Source: Spiroplasma mirum ATCC 29335
Lineage (GTDB): Bacteria > Bacillota_I > Bacilli_A > Mycoplasmatales > Mycoplasmataceae
Reading direction: 5' to 3'
Assembly: GCF_000565195.1 (NCBI RefSeq)
Contig: NZ_CP006720.1
Coordinates: forward strand, 186,001 to 250,000
DNA: 64,000 nucleotides
Shown here piece by piece: positions 3 to 62,910 of the stretch. Each line of letters starts with the position of its first letter. The stretch's first letter is position 1. The notes below the pieces were generated by a model, which was given only the letters and a program-made list of their open reading frames with translations, made no database searches and was not told where the DNA came from. The translations under genes and the position numbers were made by a program.

Positions 3-3000
3 GGTTATGGTAATTTTCATTATGATTACTCCTTTAATTATATTTCTTCAGGTTATGATGCTAATAATGTTCAAACAATATCACCATGATATACTTTTGA
101 TGCTGATTATGCTTCAACAGGTTATGGGGTTGCGGAACTTGATTTTCCAACTTTAACAATTGGAAAAGCTGACTCCGCCTTATTACCAATTAACTTAGCA
201 GCAACTAATTTTACGCCCGGAAAAACTCCCACTGCATTAGTAAGTAGTTTAGATTTTCAGTTGGATAAAAAAGATGTGGAAAATGGTGTTTTTGGTAGTT
301 TATATTGTTTTAACTTTAAAAGTCCAAGTTTTTTAAATTCAACAATTGGCCAAATTTACCAACGTGATATTTGAGGAAAACCAACAAGTGCCCAAAAAAC
401 CAAAGCAATCACTTTAATTTCAAATTATATGGATATGATTAATAATTCACAAATTACAACAAATTTAAAATTAACAATTATTGATTTTATTAATCAAAAT
501 TATAAAACAACTGGGTGAGATCTTAACCAAGCTGCTGAATTTGCTAATAAATTTATTAATGGTTCAACTTGAGACCCCTTAAAACCAACAGCCTTTGTTA
601 GTTCAACTGATAGTTGAGAAGTGAAAGGAATTTTAAATGATACGCAAAATATTCCAACAATAGAATATGATAAATCAACAAATAAAGAGATAAGAAATGA
701 TATTTTAACTTATAATGGTAGTTCAGAAAAATGAGGATTACGAGGGAATATTGGTGTTATTGCACATACTATTAATAAAACAGTGCAAAAATCATCTAAT
801 TTTAAATTTTATTATGCCAATAGTCAAAATCCAGAGATTATCAAATCAAACCAAGCAATTTTAGAAAAAGGATCATTTCGTGTTCGTAATTTAGATACTT
901 ATGATTTCTTTGATACTTTTGCTCCATTTCGTGGTTATAAAAATCAAGATTTCTTTAACTTATATTATAACTTAATTGGATTTTTAACAAATTTTGAAAT
1001 TGCAACAAGAAACCAAGCGGTGGTGTGATCAGTAACCGGGAAGAAGTATCGTTTTATTGCGGCATGGTCATCAATTATTGATAGTGAAGGAAAATTCATT
1101 CCTATTTATGATGACCCTGATCAGATAAAAATTATTCAACAGTCAAATTACTGAGATAGTTTAAAAGGAATGCGTGACACGGTAATTGTGTCGCCTCAAT
1201 ATGCTAAGGCTACTGGTCAATCGTTTGATTCAAAGATTAGTGTTGGGCAAAGCCAGGAGTTATATATTGGAGCTTATGGGGGGGGATACTCAAGATATTT
1301 ATCCAACAATCTATGATGATGATGTGATACCTTCTACCGATTCTCAAGCAATTTTATATATTTCGCACCCAATGTTTCAAGAATTATTTGGGGAAAATAA
1401 TGCCACTGGTTATTTGGATGGTGAATTTCAAGATGTTTCCCGGGGATTATTAACCCATACTGGAAATATTAAAAATAAAGATGCTGACTTTCTTAATTTT
1501 AAAAAATATCTAGCGGATAATGTTAATGATTTAAGAAATGTTACCACCGCAATTAATAACAATACTGATAATAATCTTAATAATAATTCAATTTTTAAAA
1601 CCTATGCAGATAATGCAAATGTTAACCGTCGTTATACGTTATTAAACTCAACAATTAAGTTATATTTAATTATTGCTGTTGTTTGTGTAATTTTATTCTT
1701 ATTAGTAATTAGTTTTGTTAGTTTTGTATTATTGAAAAAAATAATTGAAAAACAAAAAACACAAATTGGAATTTTAAAAGCCAATGGGTATACTACTTTT
1801 GAAATTTCTTCTGCCTATTTATTATATTTATTAATACCAATCATTATTAGCGTTCCGATTGGGTGAGCGTTGGGATTGGTATTACAAATACCAATTATGG
1901 ATATCTTTAATAACTACTTTATTATTCCAATTAAATTTAGTTCTAATGCGTTCCCACTTCTATACTTTTTCTTATTATTTATTATATTAATTGGTTTAAT
2001 TGTCGTCTTGACTTGTTATACAATGTTAGGAAAAAGTGTCCTTTTATTAGTAAATGCTAACCAAAATATTAAACCAAACCTGTATTTGAGTAGATTAGTT
2101 AGTCGGATTAAATTTAAACGGTTTACTAACAAGTTCCGGTTAATTTTAATTTCAGTATCCTTAAAGAATATTATTTTATTTATGCTAACTTTTATTGTCG
2201 CAACGGCTATTTTGACCTTATCATTATTAATTCCCACAACAATTAATAATATTTCCCGGGAATACTATAAAAATATTAAGTATAAAACGGAATACAATCT
2301 AAATAATGTCCAATATAATAATCCATTATCTCGTTATGGGCTTTATAATATGACTTCACCCTTACCAGAATTTGATGAAAATAACCCAACCCCTGATCCG
2401 ATTGGCGAAGATATGGCATTTGCTCAGTATGTAAGAAATAGTAGTGGGGATTCTTGGCAAGGCGTTAATGATCCTGAGTTTCAACAATATTATAGTGAAT
2501 ATGTGACAAATATGTTATTATACAACATTGCGCAATTAAAAGGGACTAACATTTCGTTAGCAATGCTAGACTATATTGTTAAACAAGCACCAGTGGCTAA
2601 ACAAGATGATGTTGCTAATTTATTACAAACAATTGTATGTAATATGTTACCCCAAGTATTTGGCCAAGAAGCAATTGATAATATTCCCAATGATAGTTAT
2701 TTACAAAAATGAACTTATTGTGTAGAAAAAGCAACTAACACAATTTTACCTTCGGAAATTAAAGAAATGTGGTCACGTAATAGTACCATTAAAAACCGTT
2801 TTTCATTTGGTTTTGGTTCCTTACCATTTGATCGCCAGCATGATGAATTATATACCGGTTATCAAGCAAAACTGATGAATATTAATGGGCAAGATGTTAC
2901 CGATAATAATATTTTAATTAATAGTTATGGTTATACTAAAGGCAACCTTAATAAAATGAATCTTAATAATGATGATATTTTTAAATATGATCCTAATAAT

Positions 3001-4341
3001 AAAACAATTCCGGTTTTAATTAACCAAGCTGCTGTCAAAACTTATGGACTTGGAGTTGGGGATAAAATTAATTTTGGAACAATGAGTAATGCCCTTCAAT
3101 ACTTAGGAAAAGATAATAAAATGAATGATATTAAATCAGAGTGGTGATATTTTAAAACAGATGATGAGATGGGGAACCAACAAATTTATCAGATGGATTT
3201 AAGTAAATTTACTTATTCACCCCAAAATGACAATAGTCAACAAGTATGAGGTTATAATGTTGGAACAACAGACCATCCGAACATTATACCTTATCATCAA
3301 ATGAAAGATATTATGTTAAAAATTCCAAAGAACTTAATTGATGTTAGTTTTTGAAATAAAACTCCAATTAAAATTAATAGTAATACTGGTCAAACGGAAA
3401 CGCATCTCTTTTGTAATGAGACCGGGGATTGTGCTGAAAATGGGATTGTAACAAGTGCTGGTGATTCTTATTTAATTAGGGTCTATGACTTAGGGTTTGA
3501 TCACACCTTAAATAATTTAGGCGATTTAGTATCTTCGGAGTTCCCAACCACATGGTATAACAGTGCAATGACTCTGGGATTATTAAAATCAACTAGTTTA
3601 GATAAAATTCCAACCTATAATTTGTCAGATTATCAATATCAAGTTATTGGAATCCAAAATACTTATGACCATCCGCGGATCTTTTTAGACCAACAATATG
3701 CTAATAAGGTGTTAGGTTATCCAACGGATGTTAATGCTAATAGCCAGCCATATTGGTTTAACGGGAAATATTCAACGAATGAAAAAGCAGTTGATCAAAC
3801 TGAACGCTATATCTTAAATTCAACAAATGGTAATTATTCAATGCTGAATTTTAAAGATAATTTTGCCCCGGCAATTACGAATGCTGATTATGTGGGGATG
3901 AAACAACAAATTTTAATAAAATTAACTTCAATTACTATTGAAATTGCAACCTTTTTTATTGTTTTAACAATTATTAGTGCTATTATTATTATTTTCTTGA
4001 TGACGGATGCCTTTTTAGCTAAGTATACCAAATTTATTGCCACTCTTCGGATTCAAGGTTATGCTGTGCGAGAAATTAACAGTATGATTTTAGGAATGTT
4101 TATTCCATTCGTGCTAATTGGATGAGCGTTAGGATTTGGACTATTGTGAGTTATTATTAAAGAAGCAGTTAGTGCTGTTTTATTAAATGCGGGCTTAGTA
4201 ATTCCCTTCACAATGAGTTATTATATTATTCCAATTGTGTTTGTAATCGTCATGTTTATGTTTGCCATTACCTTTTTAATTTCTTCAAAAAAAATCTTAG
4301 CAATGAATGTTCAATTATTAGCAACAGTTAATGATGAATAA
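3..4341 (+). pseudogene. Large FtsX-type ABC transporter permease, 5' end outside window, frameshifted at a G8 tract
   Basis: The reading frame is open from the window edge to 1285, then continues in the next frame from the G8 run (1278-1285) to a TAA at 4339-4341, giving about 1,445 codons. There are two FtsX-like modules. The first has membrane segments around 1657-2250, with the cytoplasmic signature KKIIEKQKTQIGILKANGY. The second has membrane segments around 3910-4300, with FIATLRIQGYAVREIN. Large extracytoplasmic domains lie before and between them. The design matches MacB/FtsX-family permeases that act on lipoproteins or surface substrates in mollicutes; the substrate is unknown. Seven Gs would keep one frame across the tract, and eight are present. 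A paralogue at 22564-26984 supports the frame on both sides of the tract. An intrinsic terminator follows. It could be phase-variable rather than dead. Confidence 0.8.
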
Positions 4342-20561: not shown

Positions 20562-22482
20562 ATGAAAAAATTATTAAGTATTTTAGGTTTTCTTTCTTTA
20601 ATTGGGACTTCAGCAATTTCTGTTGTTGCTTGTTCTGGCACTAGCGGTAGTGTGATACAGACGCTCTATTAGAATAAACCTTAACAAGTACCAAAAGTTT
20701 ATCAAAATTGATGATTATGAGCCGTCATGAAAATTTAAATTTAACACAAGCGGAGGCTAATTCATTTATTAGTCATGATAGTGTTAATAATGTTTTAAGT
20801 AACCGAGAAATTAATTTAGGGAATAACCACAGTTTTATTAAGTTATATACTTTATATAACCAATGGAAAAACTGATTTGCAACAGCAAGTCAAGATGAAT
20901 TTAAGGATTCGGCAGATTTTATTCAAAAAGATGATTAAGTAACAATGGGGCCAATTTTATTGGTTAAGTGGCGACTCGTCTAATTTAAATACGGGAGGAA
21001 TAAATAGTTTAGATTCTAATTTATATACTAGCTCAACCACTGTTAATAATGGTTTAAGTAATATGGATACAGTGTTAAAATTATTTGATAAAAATTCACT
21101 AGATAGTATGGTTAAATTATTATCAACTTTCTTACCAACAACAAAAACTGAAGGGCAACGGCCATATGGTTTAGGAAATCTTAATATGATTTATAAAGAT
21201 TATGCTTTTGGGATTATTGTCAATGGAGATCAAGGAATGTTTTTAAATGCTGTGTATAAAGTTGCTGAGAATGATGAAAGAAAACAAAAAGCAATTGCTT
21301 TATATGGTCAGGACCTTTATACAAAGTTATTTGGTAATCCAGATAATAATTCAATTGTAGATGAAGATGGAAATAAAGCGCTTTGAAATAAAAGTGATAC
21401 AAAAAAATGGTGATGATACGGGATTATTTGGGCAAACTATTAAAGAACAAATTGCCTTAGTGAAACCTAATCTTGATTCATCAACTGCTCATGATGATGA
21501 CTTCTTTAAATCTGACTATGCTGTATGGCAAGATGGTGTAAAAAAATCTTAAAAGATAGTACGACATTATTAGAAATTGCAATGGCTGCTGCGCACGCTA
21601 AACCTGCTCAGTTTGATGAGTTTATGCACTTAACAGATAATGATCGAGGAATTAAAGCGATAGAATTAGGAATGCAAATAAAATTACATATTAATTTAAA
21701 ATTTAGTGATGTTAATTATAAATTATTTTTATCAGGAATAAACCAATTTTTAACTGCCTTAGTTAATTTTAAAGGTGATGATACAAGTTAAGATGCTTTA
21801 GAAAATGATAGTAATTACAAATGAACCACAATTGATAAATTACATCATGCAACTTTAGGAAAAGATGGAAAAGGAGACTATAATAAATTTTGAACTTCAA
21901 ATAATAATACTAATTATCGTGATGAAGTAAATTGAATAATGGGTTATGATTCTAGTGGCACATCACCAACTGGATTTATTAAAAACTCATTATATGATGT
22001 TTTATATTCATGAGGTCACGATAAAAATGGCGATATGTATAATGCTTTATATGGTCCCGTAAAGTGCCTTTGCGAAAGGAATAATTAATTTTAACAAATA
22101 AGCTGATTTTGTTTATGATAATTTATATGGACCATGGTTAGAAGGCAAAAAATACTGAACATATGAAAACATTAAACATCAATATCATGCAACAGGAAAA
22201 TTAGCAGCGGTGTCATTTAATATTGAATACCATGGGTTAGGAGATTTATTGACAAGCCTTTAATTTAGATAAATTAAAAAATAATGAACAATATCGTGTT
22301 AGTTGAAACGGAACGGGGTTTATATTTTGATTCATCAGATCTTAGCAAAATTCTATATGGACAAGTTAAAAAATAAATCCCATGTCGAATGAACAAACAT
22401 TTGAACTTCAGTAATTAATGATATGATGTTAACTGATATGAAATGATATCAGCCAAATGGTGTTGATTATTATTACTTTTAA
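20562..22482 (+). pseudogene. Decayed surface lipoprotein
   Basis: It begins with a classic Spiroplasma lipoprotein signal (MKKLLSILGFLSLIGTSAIS, lipobox VVAC then S). The frame breaks within about 35 codons (TAG near 20668). Further pieces follow in all three frames, for example NNVLSNREINLGNNHSFIKL, DTVLKLFDKNSLDSMVKLL, KPAQFDEFMHLTDNDRGI and NGVDYYYF before TAA 22480-22482. TAA also interrupts at 20937-20939 and 21789-21791. Function is unknown. Its neighbour is a decayed FtsX-type permease, suggesting a former lipoprotein-permease pair. Confidence 0.8.
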
Positions 22483-22563
22483 TTTAATAGGATAGAAAAA
22501 GCATTATTCAGTTTATGAAGAATAAAAAAGGATAATGTTTTTCTTAGGTAGGAAGAAGATAAT

Positions 22564-25500
22564 ATGAAAAAGAATTTTTTATTAATTAAGCAAAATTTAC
22601 TAAGCGCTTTAAAAATTAAAATTCAATTTATTGTTTTTTTCGTGCTCCTTTTTTATATTCTTTAATCATTGCCTTATTTTCTTCTACAATTAATCGGTTA
22701 AATAAAGCAAATGCTTTTTTATACCCGAAGAGTGTGGACTATGATTATTCGTATGCTTTTAAAACTCGTGATACCAATAAAGCAAACTTACAATCGTTTA
22801 CACTGCTTTTTGCGCTTAGTGATAGTGATAATTATGTGTCATATAATGATTTACAAGATAATGTTTTTTCGTTTCCAACTTTAAGCATTGGTGGTGACGA
22901 TAGTGCGTTTTGCGAGCTTTAACAACAAGCGATTATCTTATTAATGTTGATAATACTAACCATGCCACATATTAACGTGAACATCAAAAAACCAATTTTA
23001 TAATTTTAATTATGATGGTGCTGATTTTAAAAATTCACTAATTGGTCAGTTATCCCATAAAGCTGAAGATAGTTTTAATCCTGCTTATCAACAAGAAGTT
23101 AAAACCACAATTACTAATTATCTTTTATTTTTAACTTACACTAAAATTACGGATAACATTAATCAGATGTTAACCGGTTTAATTAACTATAATTTAAATA
23201 AAGCGGTTAATCCGTGAACAAAAGAAAATGTTAATGATAAGTTTAAAGATTGAGTAAATTATGATGGTACTAGTGCGCAATGAAATCAGCACATTAATAT
23301 TAATCATTCTACTAATATCGCCATTGTTAAAGAATACCAAACAAAAGTTAATCCCATTGTTAGCAATGATTTTTTTGAACAAGGTTTAAATGGGAATCTA
23401 GGAAGTGTTTAACAATATGAATATTATGATAATAGTAGTGGGGAACTAAAAAAATGGTTATACCTATTTTTATGGGGGTAGTATTCTAACTTCAACGCAA
23501 TTTAAGAATCCCTCGGCGCCCGAAAATTATGCTTCGTTAAGAATTGGAAGGTTATATGATAGTAGTTATTATCTTTTTAATAGTAGTTTTTGTGGGCACA
23601 CTAACTTAGAGTTTTTCCAACTTTATAATAAGTTATTAGAATTAAATGAGGGATTTAATGTTTTTGATTGCTGCGAATTCATTACTTGGGATACGAAAAA
23701 TAATGTAAAGTTTAAATTAGTTGATAAAAATAGTGTTAATTTAAAAATCTTTAGTGCGTTGCCAAGTTATAATCCGAACTTTTGAGGCTATGTGGTAATT
23801 ACACCGGGCGGGCTATTATGCTAAAAAACACCATTTAAAATTAGAAGATCATATTAGTGTTAATAATTATCAGCAGGACCAGGATTTAGTAATTGGGGCG
23901 TTTGGAAGTGACTCGCAAAATGGTTATCCAACAATTTATGATGTTGATGTATTACCAAACTCTAATAGTGAAGCAACGATTTATGTTACTTCTGATGTTT
24001 TTGCAAATAATAAATTAGGTAATCCGACAACAGCATTTGAAACATCGCGGGTATTTTTAAAAGTTATTACTAAATAATAGTGATATTAATATTTTTCAGC
24101 AACATTTTGCTGATGAATATAATAATATTTTAAAAAACTATGTAGGGATTAAAAACAATACTCCGTTAGTAAATTAACTAAAGATTCAAAGCAAAGATGA
24201 TGGTCCAAAAATTTATAATCGGTACCAAATATTGGGAAATGTAATTCATATTTTTACCATTGTTATAACTGCCATTATTATTTTCTTTGGAATTATTGTT
24301 TTATTTGCATTATGAATAATTATTAAAAAGTAAATTGAAAAAGAAAAAAATAAAATTGGAATTTTAAAATCATTAGGTTATAACCAAGTTCAAATTACCT
24401 TGGCGTATTCTTTTTACCCATTAATTCCAATTCTTATCGGAATTATTTTTAGTTAGGTAATTGGGTTAGTGCTTCAAATTCCAATTATTGGGGTTTTTAG
24501 TAATTTCTTTACCTTGCCAAACCAGTTTGATGCTTATTATCCATCATTATTTTATAGTTTAATTGGTTTTCTAGTGTTACGTAGTTTAGTATGTTTCTTT
24601 ATTTCGCTCCGAATGATTTCCATTAATACCTTATATTTAATTAACTTTAATAAAAACTTACGCCCTAATTTGTTAATTTTAAAACTAAGAGCAAGTTTAC
24701 CGTTAAAACGATTTAATACTAAATTTAAATTTTTGATTGCAGCAGTTTCAGTCAAAAAAATTGTGATGATTTTTGGAACAATGTTAATTGCTACTTTTGC
24801 AATCGCCATGGTGATTGCTTACCAGTAACTGGTTCGTCGATTGTCCGTGATTATTATAAGTATTGGAATTTTAAAAACGAAACGGATTATGAAGCTCCGA
24901 TTCCCAATTCATCAATTACGCACTATGATGTTTAACAATGGCAAGGAGTTGGCCAGGGGAATAGTATTGATTATCCCTTAACAAACAACGGAGTGATTCC
25001 CAAGTATTAAACTATGGTTAATTCCGGTAATTTTTGATAAAACTGTATAAGTAACATTATCAACCATAAACTGGATTTGATCATCTGGTTTACCTGTTGT
25101 TAGGTCGCGATAATCATCTAAAATTTTTTGTAATGATCCAATCGAAATATTAGTTCCGCGAAAGGCCAATAAGTTATATCCTAACATATTAATAAGTTCA
25201 CTGGGGTAATTACCACCTTTATCAATTGTAGTATCATATTCATTCGTATTAATTTTGCTAGTTTCTCGTCATGATGGATTACCAATTGAATTATAGTTGG
25301 TGATTGAAAATCATGTATTCAACAAACCGTTAGTGCGTTAGCACCAGCTTATTTTATGGAATATTGAAATAAATCAGTGGAACGTCAAAATGAATTTACA
25401 ATTACTGCTCAAACAGTACCGTATGACCAAGCAAGCGATGAATTCTTTACGAAATTTACTTCAACTGTGCAATTAAACAACCAAGCGTTAGGGATTGCAA

Positions 25501-26984
25501 CATATGGAATTAATCCTAATAGTCGGATGATTACTTTTAATAAGGATTTATTACAACAAGATAAATATCAAAATAATACACTTCCAATCTTAATCAATAA
25601 AGCTTTTGAAAACTGGTTCGCAATATTTTGGTTTAAATAAATTAGTGGTTTTTCATAAGAATTTTGAACCGACCACCTTATAATTAACTTTCTTTTGGCA
25701 AGGATTACTTGCTAAATCATTTGCATTAGCATTCTTTAACAACCCGGTTTTAAAAGCTTCCGTGTACCACTGTGTGGGAATTCCGGCATCACCAATCACT
25801 TGTTGCACAATAGTAATTGCAATAAAACTATAATTTCAATCAAATGGACGAATAACATAACTATTATCCCGTGTTCGTACAACACCATATTTACTATCAA
25901 TTAACGATGGAAACAGGTTTTCCAAAGGATTTTTGTCATTAACAATAACTTTATTCAGGTCAATATCATTGACTCCTGGCTGGTAATTTTAGTAAGATAT
26001 TTTTTATTAAATAATATGGACAAATATGCCCCCACTACTATCGGTATAAGTTAGATCATAATATCCATATTCTAATGCAGTATACCGACTAGGATTAGTT
26101 ATCCCTTTATATTTAACTAAAACAGAATTTCCATAACTTAGGTGGCTAAAATCAATTTGGTCCAAGGGAATATCCTTGTTAGGGTCATACGAATCAATGC
26201 CCTGGTCATTATCTAAAGTATCATTATATAAATTCACCAGGCAGGATCAATTGGAACTGTTTGACCTAAGGTATTTGTATAAGTTAGAATATCAACATTT
26301 GGTTGGGCGCTAATAATATCATTAACATGATAGTTATAACTTTTGTTAGGTTATGCTACAACTTATCATCAGAACTTGGGGGTTCCCACTTATTTTAATG
26401 GGAAAGTTACCTTTAATCCAGAACCAACTGACCAAACACCAAACAACAAGATTGAGATTGGCTTCAATAACTGGTGGGTATGATATTAATAATTTTAATG
26501 ACAACTTTAACTGAATGGTCAAAGATAATAATATGATTAGTACAAAATTAATATTTTAGACCGGGTTGCTTTAATTGCCTTAATGTTAGGAATTACCTTT
26601 ATCTTAATTAATATTTTTGCGGCAATTGCCATTGTCAATATGATTATTAATTTATTTGTTAATCAGTTTAGTAAGATGATGGCCTTATTACGGATTCAAG
26701 GATATACGAACCGGGAAATTAACTCTTTTACCCTAGGGTTATTTACTCCCATTGTGATGATTACTTTAATCCTTGGTTTTATTGCCGGATGGTTTGCGAA
26801 TGTCGGGGGAATCATTATTTTTGAAAACGCCCATCTGATTATGCTTCCTTATTCATTTACATGGTATTTAATTATTATTGTACTATGTACAATTGCCATC
26901 ATTTATTTAGTAACTTATCTGTTATCAGCACATAGTTTACGAAAAATGAACATTCAAGAGCAGGTTGCTTTATTAGATGAATAG
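22564..26984 (+). pseudogene. Decayed FtsX-type permease paralogue with two internally inverted segments
   Basis: This is a full-length paralogue of the permease at 3-4341. The start ([20 protein letters not shown]) breaks in a T7 run near 22641. Later blocks are QDLVIGAFGSDSQNGYPTIY, KIGILKSLGYNQVQITLAYS, FSKMMALLRIQGYTNREINS and the natural C-terminus at TAG 26982-26984. Frameshifts and TAA/TAG stops are scattered throughout. Two stretches, about 25010-25335 and about 25655-26345, code for the expected parts of the protein only on the minus strand. Examples are NMLGYNLLAFRGTNIS against NMLLYNIAQLKGTNIS in the paralogue, and a segment ending TQWYTEAFKTGLL against TTWYNSAMTLGLL. Confidence 0.85.
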
Positions 26985-27016
26985 AAATTACGAAGATTAA
27001 TTCGTAATTTTTTTGC
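26985..27016 (+). terminator. Intrinsic terminator after the permease pseudogene
   Basis: AAATTACGA (26985-26993) pairs with TCGTAATTT (27002-27010), followed by a T run. It starts on the base after the stop codon. Confidence 0.8.
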
Positions 27017-27036
27017 CTTTTTTAAGAAAATACTTA

Positions 27037-27042
27037 TATAAT
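27037..27042 (+). promoter_or_regulatory. -10 element of the gltX promoter
   Basis: TATAAT lies 48 bases before the gltX ATG, downstream of the previous terminator. GAAGGAG just before 27090 is the ribosome binding site. Confidence 0.45.
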
Positions 27043-27089
27043 TATTATGTTAAGGGTAGGAAAAATACCAGCATTGAGAAGGAGTTATA

Positions 27090-28553
27090 ATGGAAAAGAA
27101 AATTAGATTACGATATGCTCCCAGCCCAACGGGATTCTTACATATTGGAAACACCAGAACAGCATTATTTAACTACTTATTAGCAAAACATTACCAGGGT
27201 GCTTTTATTTTAAGAATTGAAGATACTGATGTCGAACGAAATGTTGAAGGAGCAATTGCCTCACAATTAGATAATTTACGATGATTGGGAATTGAACCAG
27301 ATGAAACTATTGATAAACCTGGTCAATATGGACCATACACCCAGTTAGAAAGATTACAAACATATGAAGAATATGCTAATAAGTTGTTAGCCGCTAAAAA
27401 AGCATATTATTGTTTTTGTACGGCCCAGGAATTAGAAGCTTCGCGTGAAAAACAACTAGTCCAGGGTTATGCTTCCCCTCGTTATGATCGTCGATGTTAT
27501 CGTCTTTCGGAAGCCGAAGTTAATGAAAAATTAAAAAATAATGTTCCGACAAGTATTCGCTTTTTTGTGCCTGATAATGAAAGTTATGATTTTAATGATT
27601 TAGTGCGTGGACCAGTTCACTTTGAATCAAAAGATCTTGGGGACTGAGTAATTATAAAATCAAATGGGATTCCAACTTATAATTTTGCGGTGGTAATTGA
27701 TGATATTTTAATGGAAATTAGTCATGTTGTTCGGGGTGAAGAACATATTTCAAATACCCCAAAACAATTAATGATTTATCGAGCTTTTGAAAAAGAACCA
27801 CCAATTTTTGCCCATCTGACTTTAATTGTTAATGAACAACATAAAAAATTATCAAAACGTGATGGTCATTTAATGCAGTTTATTAGTCAATACCGTAAAA
27901 TTGGATACTTACCAAATGCCATTTTTAATTTTATTGCCCTATTAGGATGATCACCATTAGGAGAAGAAGAAATCTTTATTAAGGAAGAACTGATTAAAAT
28001 TTTTGATGAAACAAGACTAAGCAAATCACCAAGTATGTTTGATGTCAAAAAATTAACTTGAATGAATAATTTATATATTAAAAAAATGAGTGATGAGGAA
28101 TACTTAGCATTTACCAAACCCTTTTTAGCAAGTGCTTATGATTTAACAAATAAAGCGGATGATTGATTAACAATGCTCTTATTAATTTTTAAAAAAGAAC
28201 TGCAATATGGCCAAGAAATTGTTGCTTTAACAAAACCATTTTTTGTTCAGGTTACTGAATTAAGCTCAGAAACAATTGGAATGTTAAATAACTTAAATAA
28301 TTATCAGGAATTAATTACCGAGTTTCGTAACCAAATTAACCAGTTAACAAACTGAAAAGAAATTAGTATTAAAGAAATTATTAGTATGCTGGGGAAAACT
28401 TTAAATGTTAAAGGAAAAGACTTGTTTATGCCAATTCGGATTTTTGCTTCACACCAAGAACATGGTCCAGAATTAGCAAAAGTTATTTATTTATTAGGAA
28501 AGGAACAAGTTATTAAAAACATTGATAACTTATTAAATAGTAATGAAAAGTAA
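27090..28553 (+). CDS. gltX: Glutamyl-tRNA synthetase
   Basis: The protein has 487 residues, standard bacterial length. The HIGH-equivalent HIGN is at 18-21 within [19 protein letters not shown] is at 253-257. [17 protein letters not shown] is the typical active-site block, and the C-terminal anticodon-binding domain is complete. No GatCAB genes are in the window, so whether it also makes Glu-tRNA-Gln cannot be judged here. The gene overlaps the following HD gene by 11 bases. Confidence 0.96.
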
Positions 28554-34398: not shown

Positions 34399-34483
34399 TA
34401 CTGTTACTCTGCTACCTTTCTATTTTTTCTATAATTTTATTCTATCAAAAATCTTTTAATAAAAATCATTAAAATCATGTAAA

Positions 34484-45178: not shown

Positions 45179-47464
45179 ATGGCATTAACATTACGTAATT
45201 TAACCACAACTTTTTTACTAACCACTTTGGTTGGTTTCTTAACTACTTTAACAGTTGCTTGTGCTCGGACATTTACAAACGCCAGTGGTGGAAACCATAG
45301 TTATGAGAATTAATAAAATTTTAGAAATATCAAAAATACTACTAATTACTTTTTTATTTTCCCCAATAAAAAATATATTATTGTCTTTTGTAAAACCATA
45401 AAGCGCTTGGCTAACATTAATTTCACCCAGTATGGTTGTGATGATTGCGGACCGGTTCCGGATGATAATGTTTATTTTCATACTTTTTTGGAAATGCTAA
45501 ATTTACTTATTCTGTTTATTTAGCTGAATTGCAACCGTAATTTTATGGAATTCGCGATAATTTATTTAATTGTCAAAATGATAACCCGATCTTAACAACT
45601 TGAAAAAATAAATATACTAATTTAAAGTTAATTATTTTAAATAAACTTAGTTTGGATAAATTTAATGATCTATCACTAAGAGTAATTGACAATGATGATC
45701 CTAATATTGAAGTTCAAGCAAATTTTTAATATTTATTAAAGTGCATAATAATGCTTCTGGTTGCGACAAGGATATTTATCAAGGAACCCAATATATGCCT
45801 GATGCCATTGGTCCAAGTAAGTTGTCTACTTTAAGTTTTGATGTGCAGCCAATTTGAATTAGTATCTATACAAAGAATGATGCTCGTAGTGGCTTTCATA
45901 ATTTAAAATTAGAATTAAAATTCAATGTTAACGGGCAAAATATTACCTTAACCCGTCCGTTACAATTGAATGTTAAAAATTATCAGTTAGTAATGGATGA
46001 TTCCCAACAAGAGCCAAGTGAACGGTTTGGTTTTAATGCAACTTCTTATTCCTCAAATGCAATGAATTATGTTGAAAAAACGACTAATAATTTAACTACA
46101 AATAGTTTGAGTACAACAGCTGATCAAATTGGCTCCCGACCAACGAACATTCCCTATTATTTAACTGACACTTATCAGCCATATTTAATTGAACATTTAA
46201 AAACCTTAAAAAGAACAAATAACTTTTATTTATATGGAACTGGTTTTAGTCACCAGTTAATTCAATGAACAGGAAAATTATCAAAAAGTGGTTGAAGTGA
46301 CCAGCAGTATGAAGATTATATTAAAAATAACAACTTTAGTGATATTATTAAAGATAAGAACTGGACATGAACATTTGATTTTACAGTGTTAGATGCCTAT
46401 TTAAAATTAGCAGCTAAACTAGGATATCGATAATTTCTTTTTACAACAATGGATATCGGAAATTTTAGTTTTTGGTATTTAAAAGGAGCAAGTGCTACGC
46501 AAGGACCCCAACGTGATTTTAAAGTTTTGCTAGTTAATGCGAGTAATGGAATGCCAGGGAGTGATTTTAATAATTATTTGGAATTTTTACATAGTAAACT
46601 AATTAAAGCCTTATCTGAATATTGGCACCAAGTTTACCAAAAACTGGAATACAAAACTCTGGATGGTAAAACAATAACGCTTTATGATTCATTTGATGAA
46701 CTGGCGGATAAAACGAATGAACTAACGATGAAAAAATATTAATGACAATGATCAGTAAGTATCATCTAATTAAGTCAAATGTTTTTGCTGGGTGAAGATT
46801 TAAATATGATCCGTTTAACAAAAAAGAAATCCAGGAAATCTTTTTGAACAAGTATAACCAAATGATTTTACAACAACGGGAAATTGTTCAAAAATTTAAT
46901 AATTTAAATATTTATAAATTACGAAGTAATATTTTATGTCGTAAATCATTAGAAAATTCGACAATGATTTATAGTTCATGAAATAATTTCCCGGTCTCAT
47001 ATTTACAGTCTGATAATAGTAAGCAAGTATGAGAAACCATTGCTGGCTTATAAAGTAGGGGCGAATGGTTATGTCCGTTGGGCGTATAATTTTTATAGTG
47101 ATGATTATTACAAATTAGGAGAAGTCAGTTCCGAGTTTGAAGCAGGGGATAATTTCTTAGTTTATCCGGGTGATATTAAAGGGCGCCTCGTTTAAGTATA
47201 CGTTTTTTAAACTATTTAGCTGGAGTTCAAGAAGTAGATAAGATAATGCAGTTAATTGAGTTTTACCCCAACAAGCGTTATGACATTAACCGCGCGTTAA
47301 ATACAATTGGATTTGCCGGAACCACAGCCCGGGATAATAAATATAAATGATATCCCCAAGATTTTACAATTAATGATGTTAAGTTTTTACAACCAGGTTT
47401 ACACTACTAAAAAATAGTTGGGGAACAAGTTTATGAGTTATTTATGTATATTGATACATTTTAA
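45179..47464 (+). pseudogene. Decayed lipoprotein with DUF4091-like (glycoside-hydrolase-like) domain
   Basis: AAAGGAGG and ATG 45179 open a lipoprotein signal (MALTLRNLTTTFLLTTLVGF, lipobox TVAC). Within 45 codons the frame stops, and a 103-bp block in reverse orientation follows (45325-45427). Later pieces include SGFHNLKLELKFNVNGQNIT, FYLYGTGFSHQLIQW, TMDIGNFSFWYLKGASATQG and NGYVRWAYNFYSDDYYKLGE. GDNFLVYPGDIKG and SIRFLNYLAGVQEVDKIMQL complete a pattern typical of DUF4091 C-termini. Stops or frameshifts occur at about 45297, 45538, 45728, 46430, 46740, 47051 and 47195. If correct, it acted on glycans at the cell surface. Confidence 0.68.
45325..45427 (-). repeat. 103-bp perfect inverted copy of 61942-62044
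   Basis: Read on the minus strand, this block is base-for-base identical to 61942-62044 and encodes the same peptide (GEINVSQALYGFTKDNNIFF and on). Similarity ends abruptly at both sides. The two copies are 16.5 kb apart in opposite orientation. Confidence 0.9.
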
Positions 47465-60903: not shown

Positions 60904-62910
60904 ATGCGCAAGGAAGTTACAACCAATAGTCTAGTAACTATTGATGATGCTTTAGTTTGCAAATATTGTCAAAATAATATTGAAAATATTAAAGTCTTTC
61001 TCCGAACAAGAGTATTTCCTAATTTATGGAATGAAAAGTTGCTCTTATTACCCCTTGCCGAGGGGGCAAAGTTTTGTCAAGAATAACCATAAGCAATTAA
61101 TATTGCAATCATTATTTGCCATTTTAAACAATACTATTTAATTTATTCAGAAAGTAAAGGAAAAAATCAACATCATAATAATGTTAAATTTAATCCGAAG
61201 GTATTACAAAAAGTTGTCCACTTAAATCATCCGGACCATAATGTCCAAATGAATCTTGCCAATGCCAATATCCCGCCTGCAAAATTTAACTCGGCGTTAC
61301 AAATTAAACCTAATTTAATTAAAATAGTAGTAAAGACTAAGAAAAAATTTAAGACACCGCTTATCTTTGGAATGGTATTTTTATTAATTGTTGGGTTATT
61401 GTTAGGAGCAAGGTAAAGAATAAAATTATTTACTAATTCAGCTGGACCTGATGAAAATAAACCCGTTATGCCAATTATTAACCTGCGTGATTTAGGCAAT
61501 TTATCAAAAGACTTAACGGGGAATTATCAAAATTATTATATTAATATCAATGATACCTCAGAAAATAGTTTGCAATCAGCTATTAAACGAGTTGTTCACT
61601 ATGACAATAGTTTATTAGATCCTAATTTAATAAGTTTAATTGATCATCCGTTAACAACTTTGCGAACAAATGATGTGCTAGAACCGTTAAAAACAAATAA
61701 TATTGCAATTGATATTACAGTTCCTGTCCAAACGGGTCTGTTGTGAAATGGGAAAGCCACCATTAATTTAACAGTTCATAATTTTGGCCAAAAAATTAAA
61801 ATATTTGATAAAACAATTGTAAATGTTAATCAAATTAATAGTTATCAATATGTTTTAACTTCTGATGATATCATTTATGATGCTAGCAATGATTGGGAAT
61901 AAGTTTTAACTTTATCTTCACAAGTAATGAAAATGGATGCTGGTGAAATTAATGTTAGCCAAGCGCTTTATGGTTTTACAAAAGACAATAATATATTTTT
62001 TATTGGGGAAAATAAAAAAGTAATTAGTAGTATTTTTGATATTTATGGGGCTCCGTTAACAAAAACAATTAAAAAAGTTTTAATGATTCCGTTTACTAAT
62101 GCAAGTACTCTTCAATATCAAAAAATTTTCTTTCTTATTTTAACAACTGATGGGTTTTTATATTAGTTATTGTTTGATCAACGAGATAATACTTTCCATG
62201 TTGTAAAAAAAATTGACTATTTTACAATATTTCCTGAAATAATTAATGATATTTATTATAATCCTTTAGCAAATAGGATTGATGTTTATTATCAAACTAG
62301 CTTTGTTTCTTTTCCAATTAAATTAGATCTTGATATTGAACATGATGTTAAGATAGACCATAATTAAATTTCAAATGATTTTAAATTTGCTAAAATTTTT
62401 ATAAGAATGGAGTGGAAATTAAAGTAGTAAAAACTGCTCCTAGTAATCTTGTGGATGGCTTAATAATTATGGATAATAAGGTTGAATATGATTTTAAATT
62501 TCCACCGAATTATGCTGATATTTTAAATATCATTATGGATGATTCTGTTAGCAATAAAATTAAATATGCTTTAGTCAGTAATTATGATGCAACTTTAAAA
62601 AAAATATAACATTGAATTAATTAAAATTGGTGATGGTATAAGCACTGGTGATTTAGGAGATGATTTTGAAGTAGTATTATAAGATTTAACTAATAATTTT
62701 TTTGAAGATACTAATGGTCATTTGTATTTGTTTGGTAAGCAAAATAATGAGTTAATTCCTTTATATTCTTCACAAAATGATTGACAGCAGCCAATAGCTT
62801 ATTTTAATGAAGAGTTTTTGAACCACCAAGTGCAATTTGCGAAGATTCCCCTGGATAATTTTATTTTTACACAAAAAATAGTGTTTATAAATTTTAGAAT
62901 AAACTATTAA
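60904..62910 (+). pseudogene. Decayed single-TM surface protein with N-terminal CxxC motif
   Basis: AAAGGAGG (60890-60897) precedes ATG 60904. The N-terminal VCKYCQNN might bind zinc. One membrane helix (PLIFGMVFLLIVGLLLGA) is encoded near 61362. A large extracellular part follows, with IIYDASNDWE, VSQALYGFTKDNNIFFIGEN and ILTTDGFLY, resembling repeated beta-propeller-like strands. Reading one frame from 60904 to 62367 meets stops at 61084, 61090, 61414, 61900 and 62164, with no frameshift until after 62367. The remainder (to TAA 62908-62910) needs two frame changes, one in an A8 run near 62601. All five stops fit Gln. The family is not recognised. Confidence 0.75.
61942..62044 (+). repeat. 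103-bp perfect inverted copy of 45325-45427
   Basis: This block encodes part of the VSQALYGFTKDNNIFFIGEN strand region, in frame with the pseudogene, so this copy is in its native context. The partner at 45325-45427 is reversed and out of context. Confidence 0.9.

Follow-up and report, generated by a model that had tools for sequence, protein, structure and literature searches.

Does a permease gene of Spiroplasma mirum, parts of which read on the wrong strand, carry a DNA switch, or do the reversed parts record how the gene decayed? The window, the whole stretch of DNA that was analysed, comprises 64,000 nucleotides of the S. mirum contig (G000:C1:186001-250000), and positions given without a contig refer to it. 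A sequence-only reading of this window had described a permease pseudogene with two separately inverted internal segments, for which it considered an invertase, shufflon-like switching of extracellular domains, or recombination between short inverted repeats. As reference for orientation and breakpoints we used the closest genome available for comparison, taken as S. eriocheiris (G003). The argument involves two permease genes:

Positions 22564 to 26984, plus strand: decayed FtsX-type ABC permease pseudogene; its orthologue, G003:C1:244933-249347, consists of two long overlapping frames of 583 and 921 aa.
Positions 3 to 4341, plus strand: diverged FtsX-type permease paralogue, frameshifted in the window and a single 1494-aa frame in G003 (G003:C1:221632-226116), which polarises the inversion.

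The identification of the locus as a permease pseudogene is supported. The FtsX domain (PF02687) matches the G003 orthologue with 77 bits and the paralogue with 70 bits, and the pseudogene retains both FtsX domains at a detectable level. Genome-wide, there are 17 FtsX domain matches in S. mirum and 25 in G003. Among 14 Spiroplasma genomes the whole permease gene is present in just one other, G003, and two protein-based scans of genome contigs revealed no further relatives. A DNA search of S. mirum found only the pseudogene locus and the diverged paralogue; thus, no closely related sequences are available as a source of alternative segments. Frameshifts and stops break the pseudogene upstream and downstream of the inversions as well, and with multiple lesions of both kinds in the gene, the DNA is free of selection at both inversions. 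Third-codon-position differences exceed those at first and second positions in all segments, inverted or not (ratios of 2.2 to 9.3). This excess in every segment indicates long constraint and a recent death of the gene, and since it is alike in both orientations, decay has gone no further in the inverted parts than in the remainder. The G003 orthologue is itself split by one frameshift, at G003:C1:246582-246684 between the 583-aa and 921-aa frames, so that both species may be in the process of losing the permease gene. The frameshift of the paralogue in the window is located at positions 1186-1400.

For breakpoint mapping, positions 22400-27200 were used as BLASTN query against G003. The region G003:C1:244.8-249.6 kb was matched in five abutting collinear blocks with 88-91% identity and E values down to 0:

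Positions 22400 to 25009, plus strand: block 1.
Positions 25008 to 25295, minus strand: inversion 1, 288 bp, corresponding to G003:C1:247374-247661 reversed; balanced, with a TA overlap at 25008-25009 and 25294-25295.
Positions 25296 to 25610, plus strand: spacer of 315 bp separating the two inversions, uninverted and collinear with G003 (BLASTN block 25294-25612).
Positions 25611 to 26344, minus strand: inversion 2, 734 bp, corresponding to G003:C1:247977-248713 reversed; balanced, with AA at 25611-25612 and TT at 26343-26344.
Positions 26343 to 27200, plus strand: block 5.

Two segments of the pseudogene are therefore inverted in place, as had been proposed, and the order of the blocks in G003 bears out that the plus-strand flanks are collinear on both sides. 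The E value of about 1e-110 for the weaker of the two inverted blocks excludes a chance match. The alignment to a homologue that had been suggested for placing the breakpoints was possible with the nearly intact G003 orthologue, and all four were located; the earlier coordinates (25010-25335 and 25655-26345) hold to within about 45 bp, with the first segment now ending at 25295 and the second starting at 25611. No bases are gained or lost at the four junctions, so that each inverted block occupies exactly its own place, and the homology at the joints amounts to 2 bp per inversion, TA in the first and AA/TT in the second. The inverted blocks diverge from G003 by 9-12%, like the remainder of the locus. 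A nested double inversion, in which the entire block was flipped and its middle then flipped back, is ruled out, as it would exchange the order of the blocks.

In G003, a single 921-aa frame spans both segments and the neighbouring blocks on one strand, which validates the reading frames on which the first description was based. The inverted arrangement is thus not native coding in the one homologue that carries the whole gene: the orthologue is uninverted and this frame is open. The paralogue at 3-4341 likewise has the uninverted order on the plus strand. Judged by this comparison, in which G003 and the paralogue are both uninverted, the inverted state is derived and arose in the S. mirum lineage.

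The sequence-only reading regarded two inversions in one gene as unusual for simple decay. To put this in context, sampled stretches of S. mirum (600 kb) were compared with 780 kb of G003, of which 572 kb could be chained at 92.8% identity. The control was the pair G001/G013 from the same genus (92.0% identity, 266 kb), in which RecA is intact in both members. Besides the inversions in the permease gene, the following were found in S. mirum:

G000:C1 88662-89912: further in-place inversion, with flanking deletions, in a gene that is open in G003.
G000:C1 807581-808585: further in-place inversion, with flanking deletions, in a gene that is open in G003.
G000:C1 820006-820764: further in-place inversion, with flanking deletions, in a gene that is open in G003.
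Positions 45325 to 45427, minus strand: inverted-copy insertion of 103 bp, identical to the reverse complement of 61942-62044 at a distance of 16.5 kb; in G003 only the source copy is present.
G000:C1:975158-975369: inverted-copy insertion of 212 bp, 99.5% identical to a source about 4 kb away, replacing about 1 kb present in G003.

Because the genes that harbour the three further inversions have open frames in G003, all of them are events on the S. mirum side, and in-place short inversions total five per approximately 572 kb of aligned S. mirum DNA. At the junctions of these three, homology is slight or absent, or there are small fillers, except at one loosely aligned end, and the 103-bp insertion is another homology-poor rearrangement product. 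In the 572 kb, the S. mirum side shows 53 net losses of 50 bp or more, compared to 6 gaps in the opposite direction. The median junction overlap is 3 bp where the gap measures 1 kb or more (13 junctions); the junctions of shorter losses mostly involve repeats of 9-30 bp. One clean junction lies in the window at 34481, where 5.3 kb of G003 DNA is missing with an overlap of 5 bp. Across its 266 kb, the control pair has no in-place inversions and three indels of 50 bp or longer. The two pairs differ strongly in indels; the difference in inversions (0 versus approximately 2.3 expected) is not significant, and the comparison is confounded with relaxed selection, as G001/G013 may just have fewer pseudogenes. 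Short inversions thus recur during decay in S. mirum. What stands of the earlier claim is that two in one gene are mildly improbable: when five inversions are placed at random, two start within about 600 bp of each other in 2% of cases if all DNA is allowed, and in 7% if 30% of the DNA is tolerant.

The recombination-repair genes are relevant here. According to a published survey, S. mirum has lost ruvA/B, recO, recR and recU and, from the recombination set, retains just recA and recD, with recA called complete (PMC9666726). Contrary to the latter, recA of S. mirum (G000:C1:843290-844003, minus strand) is broken. Unrelated sequence, apparently out-of-frame, stands in place of the Walker A stretch, the 27 residues that follow this stretch are gone, and the C-terminus has been swapped for a permease-like tail via a 5.1-kb deletion; a 359-aa frame is nonetheless open. 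The ruvB gene contains two in-frame TAA codons. The sister species S. atrichopogonis has lost recO, recR, recU and ruvB (PMC4607517), and RecA loss is known from other spiroplasmas (PMC3563533, PMC8208695).

Taken together, the two segments are very probably fixed micro-inversions in a dead permease gene, produced by homology-independent (illegitimate) recombination in an S. mirum lineage that lacks the RecA/RuvAB/RecO-R-U pathway. Both have the properties of such products, being short (288 and 734 bp) and in place, with 2 bp of homology each. A segment would have been broken at its two ends and the fragment rejoined in reversed orientation, its ends paired over 2 bp (TA; AA/TT), so that nothing would be gained or lost. 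This cut, flip and join step is suggested by the structure of the joints, and a link between the inversions and the lost repair genes seems plausible. The flips could have occurred separately while the gene was decaying, or in one local damage event with four breaks and two turned fragments, and would have been retained because selection no longer acted on the gene. Two independent events are possible; a single compound event is possible as well, since two inversions in one gene are mildly improbable. A point against illegitimate recombination is that the other three inversions are unbalanced, and the balanced adjacent pair is not especially well explained by ordinary decay.

The main rival is replication template switching, in which a stalled nascent strand uses 2-bp matches to jump onto the opposite one, copies backwards and returns, possibly twice in one event of 1.3 kb. 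That such copying takes place in S. mirum is shown by the 103- and 212-bp inverted-copy insertions, and the flanking deletions and small fillers at the other three inversions are typical of the process. However, template switching probably gains or loses sequence as a rule; it seldom replaces hundreds of bases exactly, and two consecutive balanced products are hard to obtain. The balanced 2-bp joints would therefore seem better matched by two breaks followed by end joining of a turned fragment, and we consider template switching possible but unlikely as the origin of this pair. A search of the literature on bacterial micro-inversions with template switching returned nothing useful.

A further reading is an unrecognised conservative mechanism in S. 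mirum that flips sub-kilobase segments with no sequence specificity, for example through staggered 2-nt cleavage by a topoisomerase or nuclease that belongs to none of the known recombinase families. This we regard as improbable. If true, balanced inversion would be a regular class of mutation in a RecA-less bacterium.

A site-specific invertase or shufflon-like switch that turns extracellular domain segments of the permease would be consistent with a single surface-protein gene having two inversions, both balanced and both with a core of 2 bp. The mlp genes of Mycoplasma penetrans form one of the phase-variable inversion systems of mollicutes. Others are the vpma genes of Mycoplasma agalactiae, with Xer1 (PMC2268961), and mba/UU172 of Ureaplasma (PMC3047005); DNA inversion systems with short repeats are thus known in Mollicutes, and the repeats are at least 12 bp long, with an Xer-like tyrosine recombinase where the enzyme is known (PMC3047005, PMC2268961). 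The S. mirum locus shares with them DNA inversion in a surface or membrane protein gene, but it lacks inverted repeats of at least 12 bp and a tyrosine recombinase, and the gene is broken.

For the ends, the left flank was compared with the reversed right flank, with random pairs from the same gene at the same distance as control. Flank scores (±15 bp) were 12 and 12 (p = 0.31 and 0.33), and wider end windows were also unremarkable, with a lowest p of 0.064. Recombination between short inverted repeats is thus not borne out, and the observation that the junctions hold only very short inverted matches was right: they are 2 bp each, no better than random positions, and an overlap of at least 2 bp is expected by chance in approximately 20% of random junctions at the local base composition. 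Homologous recombination between inverted repeats was rejected as well, there being no repeat of tens of bp, and recA and ruvB being broken at present. A junction sequence common to the four inversion ends, the search for which had been recommended, is not apparent: pairwise scores range from 10 to 16 versus a control mean of 12.8, and the cores differ (TA, AA). The recommended genome search for invertase genes was equally negative. The serine (PF00239), tyrosine (PF00589) and Piv/IS110 (PF01548) recombinase families gave 0 matches in S. mirum or G003, while the same searches matched 10, 14 and 4 control genomes, respectively. Ku had no match in S. mirum or G003 either. In addition, the permease gene is dead outside the segments, and unrelated decayed genes elsewhere also carry short inversions. 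Ongoing switching therefore appears to be absent, and a switch is a very unlikely explanation.

An artefact of the assembly or of the library behind the deposited genome is just as unlikely. While the inversions are known from one S. mirum assembly, misassembled inversions normally need repeats of about read length, and the ends here have 2 bp in common; moreover, the inverted blocks are as diverged as their surroundings, and rearrangements of like style are scattered through the genome. That the inverted order is ancestral and G003 rearranged can be dismissed, as the long open G003 frame across both segments refutes it and the order of the paralogue agrees.

Micro-inversions by illegitimate recombination or end joining are well described in decaying or non-coding DNA of mammals and organelle genomes, and were reportedly a subject of Chaisson in 2006, a work cited in PMC2483231. 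The S. mirum pair resembles these in being short and in place, with flank order retained, few-bp microhomology and weak selection, and differs in that it consists of two balanced flips, 315 bp apart, in a bacterial pseudogene. Many pseudogenes, small deletions and loss of recombination-repair genes are features that S. mirum shares with the published picture of genome decay in the Mirum clade (S. atrichopogonis, PMC4607517; S. mirum, PMC9666726). These reports describe deletions, pseudogenes and conserved synteny, but make no mention of short in-place inversions. In the literature searched, we found no earlier description in Spiroplasma, and the word "inversion" is absent from PMC4607517, PMC9666726, PMC8208695 and PMC3563533.

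The locus is thus a new case, resolved in fine detail, of micro-inversion without homology in a gene undergoing decay, and not a switch. It adds a caution that inverted blocks in pseudogenes can escape gene finders, and the analysis corrects the published claim of a complete S. mirum recA. The trio of S. mirum, S. eriocheiris and S. atrichopogonis offers a natural test of the effects of homology-free rearrangement on pseudogenes. At base-pair level, the evidence indicates that a bacterium can undergo short balanced inversions without inverted repeats or matches to known invertase families, and probably without RecA.
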